64,000 bases of DNA from contig JAHCHG010000004.1 in assembly GCA_026129865.1 (NCBI GenBank), positions 124,001-188,000 of the forward strand, in the 5' to 3' direction. Position numbers and translations under genes: made by a program. Shown one piece after another: positions 951-54,789 of the stretch; within the stretch, counting starts at the first letter, position 1, and every line of letters starts with the position of its first letter. Source of the DNA: Pyrinomonadaceae bacterium. Lineage in GTDB: Bacteria > Acidobacteriota > Blastocatellia > Pyrinomonadales > Pyrinomonadaceae. The notes beneath the pieces are model-generated. The model was given only the letters and a program-made list of their open reading frames with translations, was not told the origin of the DNA and searched no databases.

Positions 951-3833
951 ATGACACATAATTTATTCAACAGCAGACAATTTTTTAAGACCGGAAATGG
1001 AAATGACGGCTCATTCTATTCGCTTCCGCAGCTCGAACGCGAAGGAATTGCAAAGGTTTCACGATTGCCTATTTCGATTCGTATCGTTTTAGAATCTGTT
1101 CTTCGTAATTTCGACGAAGGCAAAAAGATCAGCGAGGAAGATGTCCGCCGTTTTGCAAATTGGAATGCGAACGCCGAACGCGTCGAAGAAGTTCCGTTCG
1201 TCGTGGCTCGGGTTATTTTACAGGATTTTACCGGGGTTCCGCTTCTTGTGGACCTTGCAGCCATGCGCTCGGCGGTAGCACGAATGGACAAAGATCCGGG
1301 TGTAATAGAACCGCTCGTGCCGGTAGATCTTGTCATCGATCACTCCGTTCAGGTTGATTACGCCGGCAGCGAGCAAGCGTATCAAAAGAACATGGAGATG
1401 GAATTTAAGCGCAACGAACAGCGTTACCGTTTTCTAAAATGGGGCACTAAAGCATTTAGCGGATTTCGTGTTGTACCTCCCGGAATTGGGATCGTTCACC
1501 AGGTTAATCTTGAGTATCTCGCGAAAGGTGTTTTTGAACGGAACGGTGTTTATTTTCCCGATACATTGGTCGGAACAGATTCGCACACGACGATGATCAA
1601 CGGTCTCGGCATCGTCGGCTGGGGCGTCGGCGGAATTGAAGCAGAAGCCGGAATGCTCGGGCAGCCGGTTTATATTCTGACTCCTGATGTTGTCGGTGTT
1701 CACCTCTCCGGCTCGCTTCCCGAAGGGGCGACCGCGACCGATCTTGTGCTTCGGATCACGGAAATGCTTCGCGAAGCTAAGGTAGTAGGGAAATTTGTCG
1801 AATTTCACGGCGAAGGCGCGCGTGCTTTGCCGGCGACGGATCGCGCTACTATCGCAAACATGGCGCCGGAATACGGTGCGACGATGGGCTTTTTCGGAAT
1901 TGACGATAAAACTCTGGAATACTACCGTGCGACCGGTCGAACCGAAGAGCATATTGCAACCTTGAGAAATTACTATGAGGCGCAGGAAATGTTTGGTATT
2001 CCGCGTAAAGGCGAAGTGGATTACACGAACGTCCTCGAGCTTGACCTCGGGACGATCACACCTGCTGTGGCGGGACCAAAACGTCCGCAGGACCGCATTG
2101 AACTCGACGCGTTAAAGGAAAAATTCACAGAACTTTTTACCAAGCCTGTAGCCGAAAGCGGTTTTGGAAAGACTGCGGAAGATCTCGAACGAAGCTTCGG
2201 TGTTACGATCGGAGCCCATCTTGCGGACGTTGCCGTCGGCGGCGGTTCGCAAAGTTCGTCGGGAATTGCTCTTCCCGTTCTCAATAATATGAGTGTCGAG
2301 AATACAAACACCTGGACCGAAACAGAGATGGTCAATAACCGACCGACTCCGGACAGAGTAGAAAATCCGTCGGAAAACGCGATCGACGGTCCGGTAACGG
2401 CATCTATCGCGCACGGCGATGTTTTGATCGCAGCGATTACATCATGTACGAACACGTCGAATCCAAGCGTAATGCTCGCTGCCGGACTTCTGGCGAAAAA
2501 GGCGGTCGAACGCGGAATGACGGTTCCGCCGTACGTTAAGACTTCACTTGCTCCGGGATCGCGAGTTGTAACCGATTATTTGACCAAAACCGGTTTGCAG
2601 CATTACCTGGACGAGATCGGATTCGACCTTGTCGGTTACGGATGTACAACTTGCATTGGAAATTCCGGACCGCTTGACCCGTCTATCGAAGAAGCGATCG
2701 TTGAGAACGACCTCGTCGCGGCGTCGGTTCTTTCGGGAAATCGAAATTTTGAGGCTCGCGTTCATCAAAACATTAAAGCAAATTTTCTAATGTCGCCGCC
2801 GCTTGTCGTGGCATTTGCACTAGCGGGAAGCGTTACGGTCGATATTTCGAAAGATCCGCTTGGAAAAGACCGCGACGGCAACGACGTTTATTTGAAGGAC
2901 ATTTGGGCGAGTTTGGAAGAAGTAAAAGCGGTGATGGAGACCGCGTTCGATCCTGAAATGTTCAAAAAACTTTATGGAGATTTTGCGGATCAAAATCCTT
3001 TGTGGAATCAGATCCCGACAAGTGTGGGACAGGTTTATGAATGGGATGAAGATTCCACATACATTCAGGATCCGCCGTATTTCGAAGGATTTTCAATGGA
3101 AACGGGAAATTTCGCCGACATCAAAGGCGCGCGACCGCTCGCGATTTTCGGAAATTCGGTTACGACTGATCATATTTCACCGGCGGGAGCGATCAAGCCT
3201 AGTTCGCCTGCGGGACTTTATTTGCAGGAAAAGGGTGTGGTGCCGGCTGATTTCAATTCTTACGGTTCACGCCGCGGGAATGACCGGGTCATGCTGCGTG
3301 GAACATTCGCAAACGTTCGGATCAAAAATCTGCTTGTTTCGCCGAAAGAAGGCGGGTTTACAAAGTTTCAGCCAAGCGGTGAAGAGATGAGCATCTACGA
3401 TGCAGCCATGAAATATAAGGCAAACGACACGCCGCTTGTGATCATTGCCGGGCAGGAATACGGAACCGGCAGCTCGCGTGATTGGGCGGCGAAGGGAACC
3501 GCGTTGATGGGGGTAAAAGCCGTTATCGCGGAAAGCTACGAGCGAATTCATCGTTCGAATCTCATCGGAATGGGCGTGCTGCCGCTACAGTTTAAAGAAG
3601 GCGAATCCGGAGCGACGCTTGGCTTGGACGGGACAGAAACCTTTGATCTGATCGGTTTTGAAACCGAAGAGGTCAAGCCGCGCCAGAACATTACGTTGAA
3701 GATCCACCGGGCAAACGGGGAAGTTGCGGAGGCGCAGTTAACTTTGCGGATCGACACCCCGATCGAAGTCGAATACTACAAACACGGCGGCATTTTGCCG
3801 TATGTCTTGAGAGAGTTGATCTCGGGAAACTAA
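951..3833 (+). CDS. acnA: Aconitate hydratase (aconitase A)
   Basis: Interconverts citrate and isocitrate in the TCA cycle, in the cytoplasm, with a [4Fe-4S] cluster. The 960-residue protein has the full aconitase layout. The three cluster ligands are visible as C499 in [10 protein letters not shown] and C565/C568 in [10 protein letters not shown]. The swivel domain near the C-terminus carries [13 protein letters not shown] and [15 protein letters not shown]. It is slightly longer than the usual 890-900 residues of AcnA/IRP1-type enzymes. It is transcribed alone and ends in a strong hairpin terminator. The AcnA rather than AcnB assignment rests on domain order and motifs. Confidence 0.97.
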
Positions 3834-3894: not shown

Positions 3895-4098
3895 TCAAGC
3901 CGCGACGGCAAGATACGGATTTTCTCGTGGTTTGGAATTCAATTCGTAAAACCGAACAGGCATCGCGCCGTTCACTTTGACTTTCTCTTTGCGCAACTCA
4001 TACCACTTATCGCACTCAGTACAATGATAAAATTTCATCGCTAGATCATCTGTTTGAAAATCGAACTTCAATTCGCTATTACAATGCCAACACATCAT
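3895..4098 (-). CDS. Small zinc-ribbon protein, function unknown
   Basis: A 67-residue protein with two Cys pairs, CWHC at residues 3-6 and CTEC about 20 residues later, which is the spacing of a single zinc ribbon. Between them lies an acidic/aromatic stretch (FDFQTDDLAMKFYHC). The C-terminal half (KPRENPYLAVAA) looks unstructured. Two ATG codons are in tandem at the start. The upstream region carries a CIRCE-like inverted repeat, which suggests heat-shock control by HrcA. I do not recognise a named family; a role in protein quality control or transcription would be guesswork. Confidence 0.65.
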   Translation of the reverse strand: MMCWHCNSELKFDFQTDDLAMKFYHCTECDKWYELRKEKVKVNGAMPVRFYELNSKPRENPYLAVAA

Positions 4099-4170
4099 AG
4101 GTTTAATAACCCCCCATTTGTCTTTTGAGCCATTCTACCATAGATGTACGGTGCGAAAGCAAGCAATTTT

Positions 4171-4197
4171 TTAGCACTCAATTGAGCCGAGCGCTTA
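4171..4197 (-). promoter_or_regulatory. CIRCE-like operator (putative HrcA site)
   Basis: Read on the + strand: TTAGCACTC, nine bases, GAGCGCTTA. The CIRCE consensus is TTAGCACTC-N9-GAGTGCTAA, so one arm is perfect, the other matches 7 of 9, and the spacer is exactly 9. It lies 73 bases upstream of the start of the minus-strand zinc-ribbon gene and downstream of the pssA stop. A TAGAAT hexamer between it and that gene could be a -10 box. Confidence 0.5.
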
Positions 4198-4288
4198 AGT
4201 CCTGCGCTCAGAGCGAATAATGTCTTTCGGATGACTTGAAAGCAATTTGATAGATCGGTTAAGCGAGTGAACGATTCGAAAAGCCCGT

Positions 4289-5161
4289 TCAGTCAACGAT
4301 CTCGGCAGTTTCGCTTTTCGATTTGAAATTGAAGACGCCTAGAAGGTAAAAGAGCACGCCGTGGGCGACGTATGTCGCGGTTACAAATAAAAGAAGATAT
4401 TGTGAGTAAAGCCATAAGAGCATTCCGAATGCAGCGATCAAAAGGATCAAATAGAGCTTTTGTCTGCCCATTCCAAATTCCTTAAAGCTTGTATAGCGAA
4501 TCGTGCTGATCATCAAAACTCCTAGAATCCCGATCAGGATCAGCATTGATACTCCGTAAAACCGCGAAAGACTTTCGCCGTAAACGTTTAACGAAACCGG
4601 TGAAATATGTACGATCGAAGCGATCAATCCGGCTGCAAGCGGAATCGGCAAACCGACGAACTGTTTTTTATCGATCTTCGGCGTACCTTCGATAAGAACG
4701 CGCGGACGCGTCGCCTGTAAATTGAACCGCGCAAGCCGGAACGCTCCGCACATCAGATAGAGAAAAAGTACAACCAGACCAAATCCGTGAAAAGTACTGT
4801 TTTCCGGAAAAACCGCGCCGATTCCCCAACAATATGCAAGCACGACCGGGGCGATCCCAAACGTTAATACATCTGCGAGCGAGTCCAGCTGAACGCCGAT
4901 CTCTGTCGCAGTTTTTGTCATTCTTGCAAGCCTGCCGTCGAGGGTATCAAAGAGGATCGCAAGACCGATGGCGATCGCGGCGTAATCGAAATACGCAGCT
5001 GCTTTTAAGGAATCGACAGCGACCACCTGAAATCCTCGAAGCGAAAAGAGCACGGCGAGAAAACCCATCCCGATGTTTGCCGCGGTGAATGAAGTCGGCA
5101 AAAGATAGAGTCCCTTTTTTAATCCCTTGTGAACGGGCTGAGTTTCTGCTTGGTCAATCAT
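4289..5161 (-). CDS. pssA: CDP-diacylglycerol-serine O-phosphatidyltransferase
   Basis: Makes phosphatidylserine from CDP-diacylglycerol and serine at the inner membrane, the first committed step to phosphatidylethanolamine. The CDP-alcohol phosphotransferase signature D-x2-D-G-x2-A-R-x8-G-x3-D-x3-D is complete: DTLDGRLAR followed by GVQLDSLAD. Several hydrophobic helices flank it. The reading frame is open to 5221, but that would overlap psd by 41 bases; the ATG at 5161 (MIDQAETQPV) gives about 290 residues and a 19-base gap after the psd stop, and the first helix begins soon after, so I prefer it. It forms an operon with psd, which uses its product. Confidence 0.93.
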   Translation of the reverse strand: MIDQAETQPVHKGLKKGLYLLPTSFTAANIGMGFLAVLFSLRGFQVVAVDSLKAAAYFDYAAIAIGLAILFDTLDGRLARMTKTATEIGVQLDSLADVLTFGIAPVVLAYCWGIGAVFPENSTFHGFGLVVLFLYLMCGAFRLARFNLQATRPRVLIEGTPKIDKKQFVGLPIPLAAGLIASIVHISPVSLNVYGESLSRFYGVSMLILIGILGVLMISTIRYTSFKEFGMGRQKLYLILLIAAFGMLLWLYSQYLLLFVTATYVAHGVLFYLLGVFNFKSKSETAEIVD

Positions 5162-5180
5162 ATTCGTGAAAATTATAACA

Positions 5181-5837
5181 TCAGCCGAGTTTAGCGATGA
5201 TCGTTTCGCCGCCGACGACACGGTCGCCTAGTTTTACCTTTAATTCAACGCCCGACGGCATTAAAAGATCGGTGCGCGAGCTGAACTTTATCAAACCGTA
5301 TTTTTGACCAAGCGCAAGTTCATCGCCTTGCTTGCTCCAGCAAACGATTCGCCTCGCAACGATTCCGGCGATCTGAGTGCATTTTACGGTCATCTTTTCA
5401 CCTTGAATAGTTATCGAATTTCGTTCATTTACAAAACTCGCATCGTTTCTTGTCGCCGGAACCTTCTTTCCTTTCACATATTCGAGCTCAATTATCTTTC
5501 CAGCGATCGGTGCGCGGTTAATATGAACATCCAAAGGCGAAAGAAAAACGCTGACAAGCTTACCGTTTTCATCTTCATCGATCCGTGTGACCTTCCCATC
5601 GGCTGCGGAAACGACGATATCATCCGCAGTCGGAACGTTTCTCTTCGGATCTCTGAAAAAATAAGCCATAAAGAACATCAGCACCAACAGTAAAACTGCG
5701 ACGATCAAATATCCCAATGCGAAAGCAACAATTGCTGCCGCGAGCGGCAAGAATATGAACGGTAAACCTTCTTTAACCATAAAATTAAGCTGAAACAATA
5801 AAAGGTTAGACCGCAAGACGTAAGGAACATCAGACAT
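5181..5837 (-). CDS. psd: Phosphatidylserine decarboxylase (PSD-A type)
   Basis: Decarboxylates phosphatidylserine to phosphatidylethanolamine using a pyruvoyl group made by self-cleavage. The protein has an N-terminal double hydrophobic segment (about residues 25-60), FFRDPKR, and the conserved PLDVHINRAP (H105). At the self-cleavage site the usual Gly-Ser is Ser-Ser (S186-S187, in KFSSRTD), an unusual variant that I checked at codon level. At 218 residues it matches the short archaeal/proteobacterial form rather than the E. coli form. MVKEGLPFIF at residue 20 (ATG at 5780) looks like the usual family N-terminus and may be the true start. Co-transcribed with pssA. Confidence 0.92.
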   Translation of the reverse strand: MSDVPYVLRSNLLLFQLNFMVKEGLPFIFLPLAAAIVAFALGYLIVAVLLLVLMFFMAYFFRDPKRNVPTADDIVVSAADGKVTRIDEDENGKLVSVFLSPLDVHINRAPIAGKIIELEYVKGKKVPATRNDASFVNERNSITIQGEKMTVKCTQIAGIVARRIVCWSKQGDELALGQKYGLIKFSSRTDLLMPSGVELKVKLGDRVVGGETIIAKLG

Positions 5838-6233: not shown

Positions 6234-8030
6234 TCAAGATTTTTTTCTGACGTCGACGATCTTTCCTCGAAATATTCTTAACGCCTTTTTTACAACGGGG
6301 TGAGCATGTGCGTATTTCATTAATTCTTCCCCGGTTGGGTTGTCGGGCAAGAGGGGCATTTCGTCGTACGATTCATCAGCGCTGAAATCGGGCATTAAAT
6401 GCGAAAACTCAGAACCGCCTACGCCTGCATTTGCAGATCTTGAATAAATCTCGGCGACGGATTCCGATTTTTCTTTGTATCCGGGAAGTTTTGCGGCTAT
6501 TTCGGATGCAGTTGCGATCAAACTTATTTCAGAGCCGGAGAGCGCTAGTTTCTTTTCATAAGCCGCGTCGAGCCAATTGTCGTCAAAATGTTCCAGCTCT
6601 TCCGAAGAGATCTGTATCGAGCCTTCAAAAAATTCCTCCGGCGAATTTGCCGTGAGCCGCGAAATAAAATCCTCATTTTTCGTAGATTCGAAGAAATCCG
6701 GCGGAGGTTCCGGGTCAAAATCCGGAGGTTCTTCGGAAATATCTCCCACGCTATCCGGAATCGGGTCCGAGTTTACCGGAAACGGCGCATCTTCGGGCTT
6801 TGCGTTAGAAATTAGAGTTTTTTTTTCCGGCGTCGGAGCTGCCGAAACGTGGTTTTGCGGTTGCGGCGCGCCTTCCAAAGCCGACAGGCGGCGAAGTATT
6901 TCCTCGATCGAATGAACACGACGCATTTCCACAAGTTTTATCAAGCCGATCTCAAGCAGATAGCGCGGCTGAAGGGCGTCGTGCAGCCTCATTTCGGTTT
7001 CACTTAGTGAATTGAAATAGCGGATCAGGTCAGATTCGGAAAATCCCTGTGCAAGTTTCTGCAGATCTGCCAGCGGGAAAACGGCAGTATCGAGCAGATT
7101 CTCAACGTCGCCTGCCATCTTGACGACAACCAGATCGCGAAAGACCGCCAGAAGATCGCGCGAAAAATTGCGAAGGTCTTGTCCGCGTGAGACGAGTTCG
7201 TCGACAACCTTAAGGATCTCGGAACTGTTTGAATCGGCGATCGCGCTGATCGTACGAGTTAAAAGCTCGGCGCTGGCAATTCCGAGCGCGCTGATAACGT
7301 TTTCAATATCGATCTTTTCGCCGGAAAAACTGATGACCTGGTCAAAATTGCTCTGGGCGTCGCGCATCGACCCTTCGCCGGAGCGCGCGATCTCGCGAAT
7401 GGCGGGTTCAGAGATGTTGATCGTTTCTGCGTCCGCGATCAACTTGAGCCGGTCGAAAATTTTATTCAGCGGAATCGAACGGAACAAAAATTCCTGACAT
7501 CGGGAAAGGATCGTATCCGGAAGTTTGTGAAGCTCGGTCGTCGCCATGATGAACGCAACGCGCGGCGGCGGCTCTTCCAATGTTTTCAAAAGTGCGTTAA
7601 ACGACGAGTTCGAAAGCATGTGAACCTCGTCTATGATAAAGATCTTAAAACGGTCGCGAGCGGGGTTAATGTTAATACTTTCAAGGATCAATTCACGGAT
7701 GTCGTCGACGCCCGTGTGCGACGCCGCATCAAATTCGAAAACGTCGATCGAGCGGCTTTCCGATATCTCTTTACACGAAGCGCACGCGTTTCCTTCGTCT
7801 GTCCGGCAAGGATCCGGATTCGGCTCGCTGGTCTTGTGGCAATTTAAGGCTTTGGCAAGCAGGCGTGCAGTTGTTGTCTTACCAACGCCTCGCGAACCGC
7901 TGAAGATGTACGCGTGATGAAGACGATCGTTCTCGATCGCATTTTTCAGCGTGTGAGTGATCGTCTCCTGACCGGTCACTTCTTCAAATGTTTGCGGTCG
8001 CCATTTACGGGCGATTACCTGGTAAGACAT
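6234..8030 (-). CDS. dnaX: DNA polymerase III subunit gamma/tau
   Basis: The clamp-loader ATPase of the replicative polymerase. The AAA+ module has Walker A GSRGVGKTT (residues 45-53), Walker B FIIDEVHML (131-139) and the zinc module C64, C75, C83, C86 typical of gamma/tau. The sensor regions follow through about residue 370. The C-terminal 200 residues are acidic, Pro/Ser-rich and poorly conserved, as expected for the tau tail. No clear slippery sequence for a programmed gamma frameshift was noticed. It lies next to the SRP RNA gene, two tRNA-Ser genes and tadA, a neighbourhood also known in Bacillus subtilis. Confidence 0.97.
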   Translation of the reverse strand: MSYQVIARKWRPQTFEEVTGQETITHTLKNAIENDRLHHAYIFSGSRGVGKTTTARLLAKALNCHKTSEPNPDPCRTDEGNACASCKEISESRSIDVFEFDAASHTGVDDIRELILESININPARDRFKIFIIDEVHMLSNSSFNALLKTLEEPPPRVAFIMATTELHKLPDTILSRCQEFLFRSIPLNKIFDRLKLIADAETINISEPAIREIARSGEGSMRDAQSNFDQVISFSGEKIDIENVISALGIASAELLTRTISAIADSNSSEILKVVDELVSRGQDLRNFSRDLLAVFRDLVVVKMAGDVENLLDTAVFPLADLQKLAQGFSESDLIRYFNSLSETEMRLHDALQPRYLLEIGLIKLVEMRRVHSIEEILRRLSALEGAPQPQNHVSAAPTPEKKTLISNAKPEDAPFPVNSDPIPDSVGDISEEPPDFDPEPPPDFFESTKNEDFISRLTANSPEEFFEGSIQISSEELEHFDDNWLDAAYEKKLALSGSEISLIATASEIAAKLPGYKEKSESVAEIYSRSANAGVGGSEFSHLMPDFSADESYDEMPLLPDNPTGEELMKYAHAHPVVKKALRIFRGKIVDVRKKS

Positions 8031-8131
8031 CGGGTAAAAAAATAGAAAAACGGAAAATGGATTAACAACAGTTTATGCAAGTTCACCGAACCTGTCTAAC
8101 TGATCGCCCATTTTCCGCTTAAAAATTTGGA

Positions 8132-8231
8132 GGCTTCAGACTTAACCGCAACACAGGCTGAAATTGCTACCGTTGCTCGATTCCTCGCCTAGCGGAGTTC
8201 ACAACTCAAACCTTGTGCGGAGCCTGAAGCC
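8132..8231 (-). ncRNA. ffs: 4.5S signal recognition particle RNA (short bacterial type)
   Basis: About 100 nt. The terminal arms GGCTTCAG (8231-8224) and CTGAAGCC (8139-8132) pair perfectly, and inner segments TCCGCACAAGG and CCTGTGTTGCGG continue the rod. The apical domain reads GTGAACTCCGC-TAGG-CGA-GGAA-TCG-AGCA-ACGGTAGC, which holds the universal SRP features: an AGG/AGCA internal loop and a GGAA tetraloop closed by a short helix, the Ffh-binding site. There is no room for an Alu domain. Its position beside dnaX and tRNA-Ser supports the call. Ends are set by pairing and may be off by a few bases. Confidence 0.88.
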
Positions 8232-8238
8232 ATATTGT

Positions 8239-8300
8239 CAGTTATCAGTTATCAGTCAACAATGAAATCATTATTTATGTTGACTGATAACTGATAACTG
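8239..8300. repeat. Perfect 23-bp inverted repeat built of 7-base units
   Basis: Arms 8239-8261 and 8278-8300 are exact reverse complements, separated by 16 AT-rich bases. Each arm is a run of the heptamer TTATCAG (TTATCAG TTATCAG). It fills the gap between the SRP RNA and a tRNA-Ser gene. The sequence would fold to a long hairpin; there is no T-run, so it is not a classical terminator. A related element lies at 36608-36669. Confidence 0.85.
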
Positions 8301-8304
8301 TTTC

Positions 8305-8394
8305 TGGCGGAAAGGGTGGGATTCGAACCCACGGAACCCTTTCGAGCTCACAGCATTTCCAATGCTGCCAATTCAACCACTCTTGCACCTTTCC
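8305..8394 (-). tRNA. tRNA-Ser (anticodon GGA)
   Basis: Acceptor GGAAAGG pairs with CCTTTCC, followed by discriminator G and an encoded CCA. The anticodon arm is AGCAT-TGGAAA-ATGCT with GGA at positions 34-36 (reads UCC/UCU). The long variable arm typical of serine tRNAs (GTGAGCTCGAAAGGGTTCC region) and the T-arm GTGGGTTCGAATCCCAC are present. Confidence 0.96.
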
Positions 8395-8470
8395 GAAAAA
8401 CTTTATTTATCAAACAAAATTGCGGACTCTAACAAATCGAAAATCCGCAATCTAAGATCCAAAATTTAAA

Positions 8471-8560
<90 letters not shown>

Positions 8561-8616
8561 GCAAATAAAGTCTAAAAGTGCGAAAGATCAAAAGAGGAGA
8601 AGATACTTATCAATCT

Positions 8617-9093
8617 TCAACCTCGCTTATTCATTCGCAGCCTTTTAAACTTAAAAAACTCCTGCATCAAATTTCTACAATCCTCCGCTAACACTCCGGA
8701 TGTAATTTCAATTTGATGATTCAAAGAACTGGAATCGCAAATGCTGAAAACACTTTCAACGGCGCCGAAACGCAGATCGTGAGCACCGAAAACCAGCCGT
8801 TTTACACGTGCATTTACAAGCGCACCCGCGCACATTGCGCAAGGTTCAATGGTCGTATAAAGCACTGTATCCGTCAACCGATAATTGCCGATTTTCGCGG
8901 CAGCGCTGCGCAAAACTAAGATCTCGGCGTGAGCTGTCGGATCGTTGTCGGAAATCGTCCGATTTCCCGCGACAGAGAGCAATTCGCCGCCGGCATCTAT
9001 TAAGCATGCGCCGATCGGAACCTCGTCCGCTGCGAACGCCTTTCGTGCCGCGTCAAGTGCCTTTGCCATCCAGAACTCATCGGTTTCCGGCAT
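8617..9093 (-). CDS. tadA: tRNA(Arg) adenosine-34 deaminase
   Basis: Deaminates A34 to inosine in tRNA-Arg(ACG) so that it can read CGU, CGC and CGA. The zinc-dependent cytidine deaminase fold shows PTAHAE (His ligand and catalytic Glu) and [10 protein letters not shown] (two Cys ligands), followed by the TadA-specific [14 protein letters not shown]. The frame is open to a TTG at 9141; I chose the ATG at 9093 (MPETDEFW), which gives about 158 residues, the normal family length. It is first in the minus-strand row tadA, tRNA-Ser, tRNA-Ser, ffs, dnaX. Confidence 0.94.
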
Positions 9094-50229: not shown

Positions 50230-51123
50230 ATGAAGGAAATGAGACAAAGTAACTACCCTACAGATCTATTGGCTCGCGGATTTTTGGAATGTAAATCGAT
50301 CACGCGCCGCTACGGCACAAGCTATTTTTTTGCCACGCAGTTTTTCCCAGAAGAAACCCGAAAAGCTATTTACGCGATATATGCGTTTGCGAGAATCCCG
50401 GACGAGATAGTTGACGATCCGAACTCTGGCGGCAAAGCAGACGTTATTGCAAAGCTGGACAAATGGCGCCTTGATTGGGTCGTGGCGATGGATGAAGGCT
50501 GGAGCGACGATCCGGTTCTGGCAGCAATTGTACATACTTTCAAAAAATACCAAATTCCGCGGAGCGAAGGCGAAGCATTTTTGCGGTCGATGTTCATGGA
50601 CGAAGAGCGTTCATCGTATGAAAATTATGACGAATTGACGGAATATATGTACGGTTCCGCCGGCGTCATCGGATTGATGGTGACGCGGATCATCGGATTT
50701 TCGTCAAATTCTGCATTTCAGTACGCATTAAAACTCGGATACGCATTTCAGCTGACAAATTTTCTGCGCGACATTCGCGAGGACGCGGAAGACCTCGGTC
50801 GGATCTATATGCCGCGCGACGAAATGCAGCGATTTAGCCTCCGCGAGCGGGATATTCTGGAGAAAAAGATCGATCAGCGGTTCGTCGATTTTATGAAATT
50901 TCAAATTTCCCGCAATAAACAGATCTATCGCGAAGCGCTTCCGGGAATTGACCTGTTAAATTGGAAGGGACGGTTCGCGGTCAGGATCTCGTACGTGCTT
51001 TACAAGGCTATTTTGACTGAGATCGAAAAATCCAATTACGACGTTTACTCGCACCGCGCCAGAACAAATTTCACGCAAAAGCTGATGCTTTCCTTAAAAG
51101 CTCTCGTCGGAATTTATGAATAA
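50230..51123 (+). CDS. crtB: Phytoene synthase
   Basis: Joins two geranylgeranyl diphosphates head to head to phytoene, the start of the C40 carotenoid pathway. At 297 residues it has both Asp-rich motifs: YAFARIPDEIVDDP (about 51-64) and AFQLTNFLRDIREDAEDLGR (about 175-195). Squalene synthase is unlikely because crtI follows. The gene overlaps crtI by 8 bases, so they are coupled. Confidence 0.93.
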   Translation: MKEMRQSNYPTDLLARGFLECKSITRRYGTSYFFATQFFPEETRKAIYAIYAFARIPDEIVDDPNSGGKADVIAKLDKWRLDWVVAMDEGWSDDPVLAAIVHTFKKYQIPRSEGEAFLRSMFMDEERSSYENYDELTEYMYGSAGVIGLMVTRIIGFSSNSAFQYALKLGYAFQLTNFLRDIREDAEDLGRIYMPRDEMQRFSLRERDILEKKIDQRFVDFMKFQISRNKQIYREALPGIDLLNWKGRFAVRISYVLYKAILTEIEKSNYDVYSHRARTNFTQKLMLSLKALVGIYE

Positions 51124-52618
51124 GAAAGTGGTCATAATCGGCTCCGGGATCGGCGGTCTCGGAGCCGCATGTCTTTTTGCGAAAAAAGGTTACGAAGTCG
51201 CCGTTTTTGAAAAGAACGACAACTTCGGCGGTCGCGCCAATATCTTTGAGGCAAACGGCTTCCGGTTCGATATGGGACCGTCGTGGTATCTGGCGCCGGA
51301 CATCTTCGAGCATTTTTTCAATTTGGTCGGCGAGAAAGTTGAAGATCACCTTGACCTCGTAACGCTTCAGCCTTCATACCGCATATTTTTCCGGAACGAT
51401 CCTCAGAGCTTAGACATTCACTCCGACATAGAGCGCGACGCCGCGACGTTCGAAGCGATCGAACCGGGCGCGGGCGAGCAGTTAAGAGCGTATTTGAAAC
51501 AATCAGAATATCAATACAAGGTCGCGACCGAACATTTTATGTTCAAGAATTACGACACGATCTTCGATTTTTTCAACCGCCGCGTGATGACCGAAGGACA
51601 GAAGCTTTCGGTTTTTTCGAAGATGCATAAATTTGTCTCGAGATTTTTTAAGACCGAAAAACTGCGGCAGGTGATGGAATATACGATGGTTTTTCTCGGG
51701 ACGTCGCCGTATGAAGCGCCGGCGCTTTACAACCTGATGAGCCATATGGACTTCAATCAGGGGGTTTTTTATCCGCGCGGCGGATTTTACGAACTGATCA
51801 ACGCTTTATGCCGCATTGCGGAAAAAAACGGCGCCGTGCTGCGAAATTCGTGCGCTGTAGATGAAATTATCGTTGAAAATGGAAAAGCATCAGGCGTTCG
51901 GCTTGAATCAGGGGAAGTTGTCGAAGCCGACATGGTCATTTCCAACGCCGACATGTGGTTTACCGAAACCAGATTGCTTAAAAAGAAAGAGCGGACATAC
52001 AGCGAACGATATTGGCGCAAGCGCGTGATGGCGCCTTCGGCTTTCATTATGTATCTCGGAGTCAGTGAGAAACTTCAGGGAATTACGCATCACAATTTGA
52101 TCTTTTCCGAAGATTGGCGCAAGAATTTTGACGATATTTACAAAGATCCGCAGCTTCCGATAGAGCCGTCTTTGTACGTTTGCGCGCCAAGCGTCACCGA
52201 CAATACGGTTGCGCCTGAAGGCAAAGAGAATCTATTCGTTCTTGTCCCGATCGCTTCCGATCTAAAAATTTCCGAAGACGAAAAAGAAGCATATGCCGAC
52301 AGGATTTTGGCGGAAATGGAGCGGGAAATGAAGCTTCCGGGTCTTCGACAAAAGATCGAATACAAGCGAATATACACGGTTGATAATTTTGCCGCAGATT
52401 ATCACAGCTTTAAAGGCTCTGCGCTCGGGCTGGCACATACGCTTCGTCAAACGGCGATCTTTCGACCGAAAAATTATTCAAAAAAGGCGAAAGATCTGTT
52501 TTATGTCGGCGCCGGAGTCAATCCGGGAATCGGCACGCAGATCTGTTTGATCAGCGCCGAACTTGCGTATAAACGCGTTCATGGAATAAAGACAGCGGAG
52601 CCGATGACGGAACTCTAG
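51116..52618 (+). CDS. crtI: Phytoene desaturase
   Basis: Introduces double bases of the polyene chain, usually phytoene to lycopene or neurosporene. The 500-residue protein has the FAD/NAD Rossmann start IIGSGIGGLGAACLFAKKG, the CrtI-specific FRFDMGPSWYLAPDIFEHFF near residues 50-70, MVFLGTSPYEAPALYNLMSH and the C-terminal FYVGAGVNPGIGTQICLISA. The start overlaps the end of crtB. The number of desaturation steps cannot be read. Its 3' end overlaps the convergent prenyltransferase gene by 4 bases. Confidence 0.95.
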   Translation: MNKKVVIIGSGIGGLGAACLFAKKGYEVAVFEKNDNFGGRANIFEANGFRFDMGPSWYLAPDIFEHFFNLVGEKVEDHLDLVTLQPSYRIFFRNDPQSLDIHSDIERDAATFEAIEPGAGEQLRAYLKQSEYQYKVATEHFMFKNYDTIFDFFNRRVMTEGQKLSVFSKMHKFVSRFFKTEKLRQVMEYTMVFLGTSPYEAPALYNLMSHMDFNQGVFYPRGGFYELINALCRIAEKNGAVLRNSCAVDEIIVENGKASGVRLESGEVVEADMVISNADMWFTETRLLKKKERTYSERYWRKRVMAPSAFIMYLGVSEKLQGITHHNLIFSEDWRKNFDDIYKDPQLPIEPSLYVCAPSVTDNTVAPEGKENLFVLVPIASDLKISEDEKEAYADRILAEMEREMKLPGLRQKIEYKRIYTVDNFAADYHSFKGSALGLAHTLRQTAIFRPKNYSKKAKDLFYVGAGVNPGIGTQICLISAELAYKRVHGIKTAEPMTEL

Positions 52619-53460
52619 AGGAATTTATTTAACGCGATGATCCAGAATAAAACAAAGCCGGCGCCGGCGTTTACGATCGGAAAAGCTTTATAAACTTTGA
52701 AAATTTGATCGGTTCTTGAAAATTTGAATGAAACAAAGATCATAGCGGTAAAGACCGCTGCAAAAATTGCGCTGAAAGCTCCGAGTTCCGGAAAGGCGAG
52801 CGCCGCAGAAGCCGTGTAAAAGATCAGACAAAAAACAAGAGTTCCGCCCGCGCCGAGAACGGTCGCAACGGTTTGGAGACTTGCTTCGCGGTCCGCCTTT
52901 ATATCGGGAATGGCTGAGTATGCATGCATTGCCATTGTCCAAAAACCGCCGGCAACGATGATCCGCAATGGAGGAAATTCGCCGGTCAGCATTTGGTAGG
53001 AGAAAACCCCTGGAAATATATAAAGGACATTAAAAATTGAATCGAGGAACGGTTTTGTCTTAGCTCTGATCGGCGGCGCGGAATAAAAGATCGAAAAGAA
53101 CAAAAAAAGTCCGAGCGCCGGAAGCGTCCGCGGTGCAAGAAAAAATGCGGCGATCCAAAAGGGAAGATTTAGGAGAATAATAACCGAGATCAGAGAGCTT
53201 CGGTCGCCGGGGCGGACGAGCATTTCGTATTCCGCTTTCTTGGCATTTATACGGTCGGTTTCGTAATCGAAAATATCGTTGATCCCGTAAACCAAAATGT
53301 TTGCCGGCATTGTAAAATAGATACCGAACAGAACGCTTGCGAACATATAAACGTCCGATTCTTCCACGGCTCCGGCGGCTATGCCGATAAGATATGGACC
53401 AAAAAGGTAGATCCAGAAACGAATTCGGCTGACCTGAAGAAAAAATGCGGGTTCGGGCAT
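52615..53460 (-). CDS. UbiA-family prenyltransferase, lycopene elongase-like
   Basis: About 281 residues from the ATG at 53460 (a GTG at 53478 is possible). It is an integral membrane prenyltransferase with the metal motifs NDIFDYETDRINAKK and AIPDIKADREA. SRIRFWIYLFGPYLIGIA, YSAPPIRAKTKPFLDSIFN, LYIFPGVFS and AMHAYSAIPDI match my recollection of archaeal and actinobacterial lycopene elongases (LyeJ/CrtEb) better than ubiquinone-type UbiA. Those add dimethylallyl units to the ends of lycopene to form C45/C50 carotenoids. The neighbours crtB, crtI and the CruF-Idi fusion support this; family-level annotation is safe, the elongase role is inferred. Confidence 0.85.
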   Translation of the reverse strand: MPEPAFFLQVSRIRFWIYLFGPYLIGIAAGAVEESDVYMFASVLFGIYFTMPANILVYGINDIFDYETDRINAKKAEYEMLVRPGDRSSLISVIILLNLPFWIAAFFLAPRTLPALGLFLFFSIFYSAPPIRAKTKPFLDSIFNVLYIFPGVFSYQMLTGEFPPLRIIVAGGFWTMAMHAYSAIPDIKADREASLQTVATVLGAGGTLVFCLIFYTASAALAFPELGAFSAIFAAVFTAMIFVSFKFSRTDQIFKVYKAFPIVNAGAGFVLFWIIALNKFL

Positions 53461-53478
53461 GAAATAAGTATAAACCAC

Positions 53479-54789
53479 TTGAACAGAAATCTTTACAGCG
53501 AGATAAAAGCGCTTTTGGTGCTGATGCCGATACTTTTTGCGTCGGCATTTTTCACGGTCAATGCGCCGATGCCGCCGTGGGCTTTTGCGGTCTCAAATGC
53601 GAGCATTCTGCTATTTGCCGCACCTTCGTTTTTCGCTGCCCGGCGATGGATCGGGACGCGCGGCGCTGTAGTGTTATTCGGCATTCTGGGGCTTTTCGCG
53701 CTCGCGATCGAAACCGCCGCGATCGCGACCGGAATTCCATACGGAAACTTTGCATACAGCGAAATGCTCGGCTTCAAACTGTTCGGTTTAACGCCCTGGA
53801 CGATACTTTTTGCCTGGACTCCGCTGATGATCGCGGCGTATGCGGTCGCACGAATTTATTTTGAAAATTGGATCATTCGCACGGCTGCGGTTGCCTCTAT
53901 TTTAGTAGGTTTCGATCTGGTTCTAGACCCCGGCGCCGTGAGTTTGCGTTTCTGGAGTTTCCAAAACGGCGGATGGTTTTACAGCGTTCCCGTTTCAAAT
54001 TTCGTCGGATGGCTGATCTCCGGAGCGGTCGGCGCGCTGATCCTGGAAACATTTCTTTATTACTTAAAGCCGCTTTTGCCGGTTCCCGTTCAATTGATTC
54101 AGAGCGCATTTTTAATCTTGATCTTCTGGGTGTCGATCGCATTCTGGAGCGCTCTCTGGATGCCGTTCTTTGTTGGAATCTTACTGCTCATCGTTCTCGC
54201 GGTTATATATTCCCGTCATATTTACCGGTTCGATGAAATGATCGTGCTGGTCAATGAAAAGAACGAACCTATCGCTACGGCTGAAAAACTTTCTAACCAT
54301 CATGACAAGACTCCGCTTCATCGTGCTTTTTCGATTTTTCTTTTTAGCGGTGAGGGTAAAATGCTGCTTCAAAAACGGGCTTCGCACAAGAAAACCTGGG
54401 GCGGAATATGGTCAAATTCCTGCTGCGGACATTTGATGCTGCATGAATCTCTGGAAAACGCGGCGAAAAGGCGTGTGAAATACGAACTCGGCATTAAGAA
54501 GATCGAACCCATCGTTATCCTGCCGGACTTTCGCTACCGTGCTGAAAAGGACGGAATAGTTGAAAATGAAATATGCCCTGTGATGGCGGCGTTTATCGAT
54601 AGCGAGCCCCGTCCGAACGCGGCTGAGGTGGAAGATTTTGAATGGATCGAGTGGAAAAGTTTCGTTGATGAGATCGCAAAACCGGACGATCGATACTCGC
54701 CGTGGGCGAAACTTGAGACCGAAGAGCTCGAAAAGAGTGAACTTTTTCAAAAATGGCTTTCCGGCGTCGTCAAAAAGGGCGGTATATGA
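53479..54789 (+). CDS. Fusion: CruF-like carotenoid hydratase + type I isopentenyl diphosphate isomerase
   Basis: A 436-residue two-domain protein. Residues 1-245 form 7-8 membrane helices with the CruF/carotenoid-synthesis family motifs ATGIPYGNFAYSEMLGFKLF, DLVLDPGAVSLRFWSF and NGGWFYSVPVSNFVGWLISG; CruF hydrates acyclic carotenoid ends. Residues about 250-436 are a Nudix type I Idi: LQKRASHKKTWGGIWSNSC with catalytic C316, H318 (CCGHL), Nudix box LENAAKRRVKYELGI and VENEICPVMAA (E362/E364). Idi equilibrates IPP and DMAPP. A fusion of these two is unfamiliar to me. Start is TTG at 53479; the ATG at 53524 is an alternative. Back to back with the elongase-like gene. Confidence 0.88.
   Translation: MNRNLYSEIKALLVLMPILFASAFFTVNAPMPPWAFAVSNASILLFAAPSFFAARRWIGTRGAVVLFGILGLFALAIETAAIATGIPYGNFAYSEMLGFKLFGLTPWTILFAWTPLMIAAYAVARIYFENWIIRTAAVASILVGFDLVLDPGAVSLRFWSFQNGGWFYSVPVSNFVGWLISGAVGALILETFLYYLKPLLPVPVQLIQSAFLILIFWVSIAFWSALWMPFFVGILLLIVLAVIYSRHIYRFDEMIVLVNEKNEPIATAEKLSNHHDKTPLHRAFSIFLFSGEGKMLLQKRASHKKTWGGIWSNSCCGHLMLHESLENAAKRRVKYELGIKKIEPIVILPDFRYRAEKDGIVENEICPVMAAFIDSEPRPNAAEVEDFEWIEWKSFVDEIAKPDDRYSPWAKLETEELEKSELFQKWLSGVVKKGGI

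Follow-up and report, generated by a model that had tools for sequence, protein, structure and literature searches.

A CruF-like membrane domain fused to a type I IPP isomerase in a predicted bacterioruberin-type gene cluster of the Pyrinomonadaceae

Haloarchaeal and actinobacterial bacterioruberin clusters, such as those of Haloarcula japonica (c0507-c0506-c0505) and Arthrobacter agilis, encode a phytoene synthase, a CrtI/CrtD desaturase, a Lye elongase and CruF, the last as a separate protein. In H. japonica, the route from lycopene to bacterioruberin involves LyeJ and CruF, and a single CrtI homologue able to carry out both phytoene desaturation and 3,4-desaturation has been described (PMC11946383). 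The IPP isomerase gene, idi, is also a separate gene in Arthrobacter, where it is clustered with idsA, crtB and crtI (PMC9122864). The nearest precedent for an IPP isomerase and another isoprenoid enzyme in one protein is the IDI-squalene synthase fusion of algae and diatoms (PMC9033121), although its hosts are eukaryotic and the partner is squalene synthase, not a carotenoid hydratase. No bacterioruberin-type pathway described for the Acidobacteriota was found in the literature searched. The locus presented here lies in a 64,000-nucleotide stretch of a Pyrinomonadaceae contig (the window) and encodes the same four types of protein, but with cruF and idi joined in one gene and the elongase gene on the opposite strand. 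The component families are well known; what appears to be new is the joining of CruF to an IPP isomerase.

The fusion occupies positions 53479-54789 (+) of the window as a single open frame of 436 amino acids plus stop (Table 1). The original prediction of a complete CruF module followed, in one uninterrupted frame, by a complete Nudix isomerase is borne out by the frame itself and by its matches to domain models. PF04240 covers residues 43-239 with 135.9 bits (Pfam gathering cut-off 25) and is directly followed by type I IDI models at residues 252-423, where both NF002995 (208.5 bits, cut-off 127) and TIGR02150 (133 bits, cut-off 105.8) pass; a NUDIX match spans residues 280-409. The CruF half scores below the cut-offs of two CruF equivalog models, TIGR03460 (113.3 against 154.7 bits) and NF041333 (102.4 against 300 bits), and is therefore filed as CruF-like and not as an equivalog, its substrate being assigned from gene context. 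The gene does lie beside a Lye elongase and a CrtI/CrtD desaturase, the setting expected of a bisanhydrobacterioruberin hydratase. For comparison, an unfused CruF encoded in another genome (G026) reaches 151.4 bits on TIGR03460.

The predicted start codon, TTG at 53479, is the most upstream ATG, GTG or TTG in frame. Taken at their longest, the frames of the fusion (TTG, + strand, from 53479) and of the elongase (GTG, - strand, from 53478) lie head to head with zero bases between them. An internal start at Met254, from which the isomerase would be translated on its own, was considered and rejected: six copies have K, R or I in place of this border Met, so the position offers no conserved start.

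Table 1. Positions of the cluster genes in the window and of related loci in other genomes
Feature	Sequence	Position	Strand	Remarks
crtB phytoene synthase	window	50230..51123	+	PF00494 226 bits
crtI/crtD-type desaturase	window	51116..52618	+	TIGR02734 over cut-off; NF058655 below
ubiA-family lycopene elongase, Lye type	window	52615..53478	-	PF01040; NF009516; divergent from fusion gene
cruF::idi, CruF half	window	53479..54225	+	residues 1-249; eight predicted TM helices; PF04240
cruF::idi, type I IPP isomerase half	window	54226..54789	+	residues 250-436; NF002995
cruF::idi alone at g9 site	L069 (G162)	6745-8097		
cruF::idi alone at g9 site	L070 (G164)	6676-8061		
cruF::idi alone at g9 site	L071 (G171)	1778-3085		
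isomerase alone at same site	L047 (G087)	8070-8741		crt genes and CruF half absent
isomerase alone at same site	L072 (G163)	6996-7595		crt genes and CruF half absent
tandem PF04240 protein	L084 (G299)	3918-5564	-	548 amino acids
YciB-Nudix protein	L086	5364-6464	-	
YciB-Nudix protein	L087	2235-3314	-	

Judged by sequence, the genes around the fusion form a bacterioruberin-type cluster of crtB, a CrtI/CrtD-type desaturase, a Lye-type elongase and cruF::idi. The original prediction had named only the elongase, which does lie next door, while the whole cluster is of this type and matches the gene set and order of a haloarchaeal plasmid, Halarchaeum NZ_CP054708 (crtB-crtI-prenyltransferase-cruF), with identities of 43% for the desaturase, 43% for the elongase and 40% over the aligned part of CruF. 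The elongase scores 262 bits on NF009516 (cut-off 205), a model that the Halarchaeum prenyltransferase also passes (397.5 bits), and it keeps the prenyltransferase Asp motif NDxFDxxxD. No PF00494 gene other than crtB was found in the window's genome. The desaturase falls slightly short of the CrtID model NF058655 (612.3 bits against a cut-off of 640); as the sole CrtI-type match in the genome, it probably performs both phytoene desaturation and 3,4-desaturation, and must do so if the product is bacterioruberin. The product of the cluster would then be a red C50 carotenoid of the bacterioruberin type.

The whole-protein structural model has a mean pLDDT of 88 and a pTM of 0.81, and a further model for the CruF half has a pLDDT of 93. 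Eight helices were counted as membrane-spanning in the CruF half of the model, in agreement with hydropathy; the last reaches residue 247, with the isomerase starting near residue 252. The distribution of positive charge among the loops favours a topology with both termini in the cytosol, so the isomerase half is predicted, from charge pattern and model, to lie on the cytosolic face. The model comes without inter-domain confidence values, and the relative orientation of the domains is therefore not claimed. The modelled isomerase fold matches E. coli IDI structures with TM-scores of 0.88-0.90 (normalised to the target) at 41% identity; the catalytic residues are the same, and Idi is a stand-alone protein in E. 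coli but fused here. No solved structure matching the CruF half by sequence was found, and a Foldseek search with the CruF fold gave zero matches under E 0.001. VIA-align, run on CruF model residues 60-200, placed the bacterial Insig homologue MvINS (4xu4) first, with Z 8.5 over 133 residues and an rmsd of 3.2, the next match being at 6.2; this match is a lead only.

Alignment with E. coli IDI maps nine residues onto the isomerase half: H274, H281, C316, H318, E336, Y353, E362, E364 and W409. In the E. coli enzyme, C316 corresponds to the catalytic Cys and E362 and E364 to active-site Glu residues, the metal-binding set includes the counterparts of H274, H281, H318 and E336, and Y353 and W409 correspond to the active-site Tyr and Trp. 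All nine are invariant in 25 aligned fusion proteins, confirming the intact catalytic Cys and His of the original prediction and ruling out a dead isomerase domain. In the CruF half, E78, D146, D150, N174 and W178 are invariant as well. Furthermore, residues 140 to 415 align with zero gaps across the 25 copies, indicating that the length and spacing of the linker are fixed; identity between the window protein and the other fused copies is 48-54%. In the four closest fusion pairs, dN/dS is about 0.04-0.14 in both halves.

In a genome survey of the phylum Acidobacteriota, PF04240 and a type I IDI domain were found fused in 27 of the 162 genomes of the class Blastocatellia, in three genera of one family, the Pyrinomonadaceae. 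With the same fused frame repeated in 27 genomes, chance, a sequencing or assembly error, or a stop or frameshift between the domains is ruled out as an explanation for the fusion. One further copy, in G168, lies on a contig that ends within the CruF half. The fusion was found in no other family of the class, nowhere else among 297 genomes sampled from the Acidobacteriota, on none of 72,556 plasmid records and on no viral contig. A contig scan by short exact peptides returned a single relative, apparently the contig of G067. No described fusion joining CruF to an IPP isomerase was found in the open-access literature searched, which yielded only the algal IDI-squalene synthase case.

Long Idi-like frames in Acidobacteriota family f33 (L085-L087) proved to be YciB-Nudix proteins. 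These too combine a membrane protein with an IDI-like Nudix domain, but their membrane part is PF04279 (YciB/IspA), and in L086, the one read, the isomerase cysteine is replaced (TAVGGHA), so that this copy is not an IDI. The Nudix domain at L086 and L087 resembles IDI or YfcD; for L085 the evidence is an Idi-like frame alone. Separately, the protein listed for G299 contains two tandem PF04240 stretches, and the two overlapping PF04240 frames of L088 (G266) may resemble it.

In the window's genome (~96% complete) a single IPP isomerase was found, the fused domain: no other type I and no type II enzyme scored over its cut-off, and the lone weak type II match had 21 bits against a cut-off of 281. 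IspH, a marker of the MEP pathway, is present. A C50 carotenoid requires four DMAPP and six IPP, i.e. 40% DMAPP, compared with 25% for a C40 carotenoid. Since the IPP:DMAPP output of the MEP pathway is given as 85:15 (PMC9033121), the demand of a C50 pathway exceeds both that of a C40 pathway and the MEP supply of ~15%, which is a simple reason to make an isomerase together with the pathway. We consider it fairly probable that the fusion is a bifunctional membrane protein, a CruF-type hydratase and IPP isomerase that contributes to DMAPP supply for the C50 pathway; both enzyme activities, and any benefit of their physical proximity, are what we infer. The CruF domain would most likely complete bacterioruberin by hydrating the C50 carotenoid at its terminal C5 units. 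IPP and DMAPP would be interconverted by the C-terminal domain, which follows the last helix after a few residues and is predicted on the cytosolic face; an isomerase produced along with the pathway would keep DMAPP from running short.

The same two activities are assumed by a rival account that differs as to why the fusion exists, and to which we give a little less than an even chance. Here, the isomerase is a general IPP isomerase and the join only ensures co-expression, so that membrane position is irrelevant and there is no channelling. That no other IPP isomerase was found in the genome fits this account, as does the survival of the isomerase alone at the same site in two genomes nested among the fused copies (G087 and G163, see below). 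However, the join and the exact linker length have been kept over ~50% sequence divergence in three genera, a degree of conservation that exceeds the need for co-expression, which an operon would serve.

In genus g9 the cluster is found at a conserved chromosomal site, among genes that we take to be CoaBC, uracil-DNA glycosylase-like, asparaginase-like and CinA genes, and some genomes carry it in full. At this site cruF::idi stands alone in G162, G164 and G171, and no elongase, CrtI or phytoene/squalene synthase family (PF00494) member was found anywhere in these three assemblies, which are 78-87% complete and may lack some sequence; the chance that a relocated cluster was missed in all three is about 0.4% by simple multiplication. 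Two further genomes, G087 and G163, have the isomerase alone at the same site, and neither the fusion nor CrtI/CrtB was found in G080, G082 and G084. In trees, some nodes of which are weakly supported, G164 groups with the cluster-bearing G146 and G065, G162 and G171 group with the cluster-bearing G153, and the stand-alone isomerases of G087 and G163 are nested among fused copies. By these placements, the cluster losses look derived and appear to have happened more than once, and it seems that the CruF half was lost on two occasions while the isomerase was kept. A converse case is G026, which has crtB, crtI, an elongase and unfused cruF; no isomerase was found in this genome, where the contig ends 310 bases past cruF and an adjacent separate idi may lie beyond. 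Three genomes with the fusion but no pathway found, and one with the pathway but no isomerase found, indicate that neither half strictly needs the other. Taken together, the loss series and G026 speak for an isomerase of general use that is joined to a carotenoid enzyme, more than for a dedicated partner of the elongase.

The same exceptions bear on the idea of DMAPP channelling, by which the fused isomerase would dock with the product of the adjacent elongase gene and pass DMAPP to it at the membrane. Such a handover looks improbable: the elongase adjoins the fusion in 24 of the 27 fused genomes, the isomerase is predicted on the cytosolic side and the linker is fixed, yet no elongase was found in G162, G164 and G171, which carry the fusion, no isomerase was found in G026, where an elongase accompanies an unfused CruF, and the elongase gene is divergently oriented, outside the fusion's transcript. 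The original prediction, that the fusion could place DMAPP supply at the membrane for the neighbouring elongase, is supported only in part. Placement at the membrane fits the model, with its eight TM helices and an isomerase placed in the cytosol by charge pattern, whereas supply for the elongase specifically is called into question by the three fused genomes in which none was found, by the unfused G026, and by G087 and G163, with the isomerase alone.

The genomes with the fusion alone also speak to a non-carotenoid role for the CruF half, which might act on a different isoprenoid or anchor the isomerase in the membrane; we regard such a role as unlikely. The CruF half has been kept in two separate lineages with no PF00494 or CrtI match in the assembled genome, retains E78, D146 and D150, and between G162 and G171 is still under purifying selection, with a dN/dS of 0.05 (95% range 0.02-0.09), like that of full-cluster pairs. 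Against this, at the completeness of these assemblies a relocated cluster could be missed. Moreover, the CruF half has changed about twice as fast in the cluster-less genomes as in the closest relatives that make carotenoids (40 to 19 sites, p 0.009, in a test that pools two comparisons, neither significant alone), while the isomerase half is not faster (19 to 13 sites); the faster change of the CruF half hints at loosened constraint.

On the reading that we prefer, a bifunctional hydratase and isomerase, the fusion would be a conserved, naturally occurring tie between the balance of isoprenoid precursors and those steps of C50 carotenoid synthesis that take place at the membrane. It also offers a ready test of whether a membrane-tethered IPP isomerase helps terpenoid yield. 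The genomes that have the fusion without the pathway raise the question of the role of CruF; were a non-carotenoid role true, it would mean that CruF has a second substrate, or that an IPP isomerase anchored in the membrane is a functional unit by itself.
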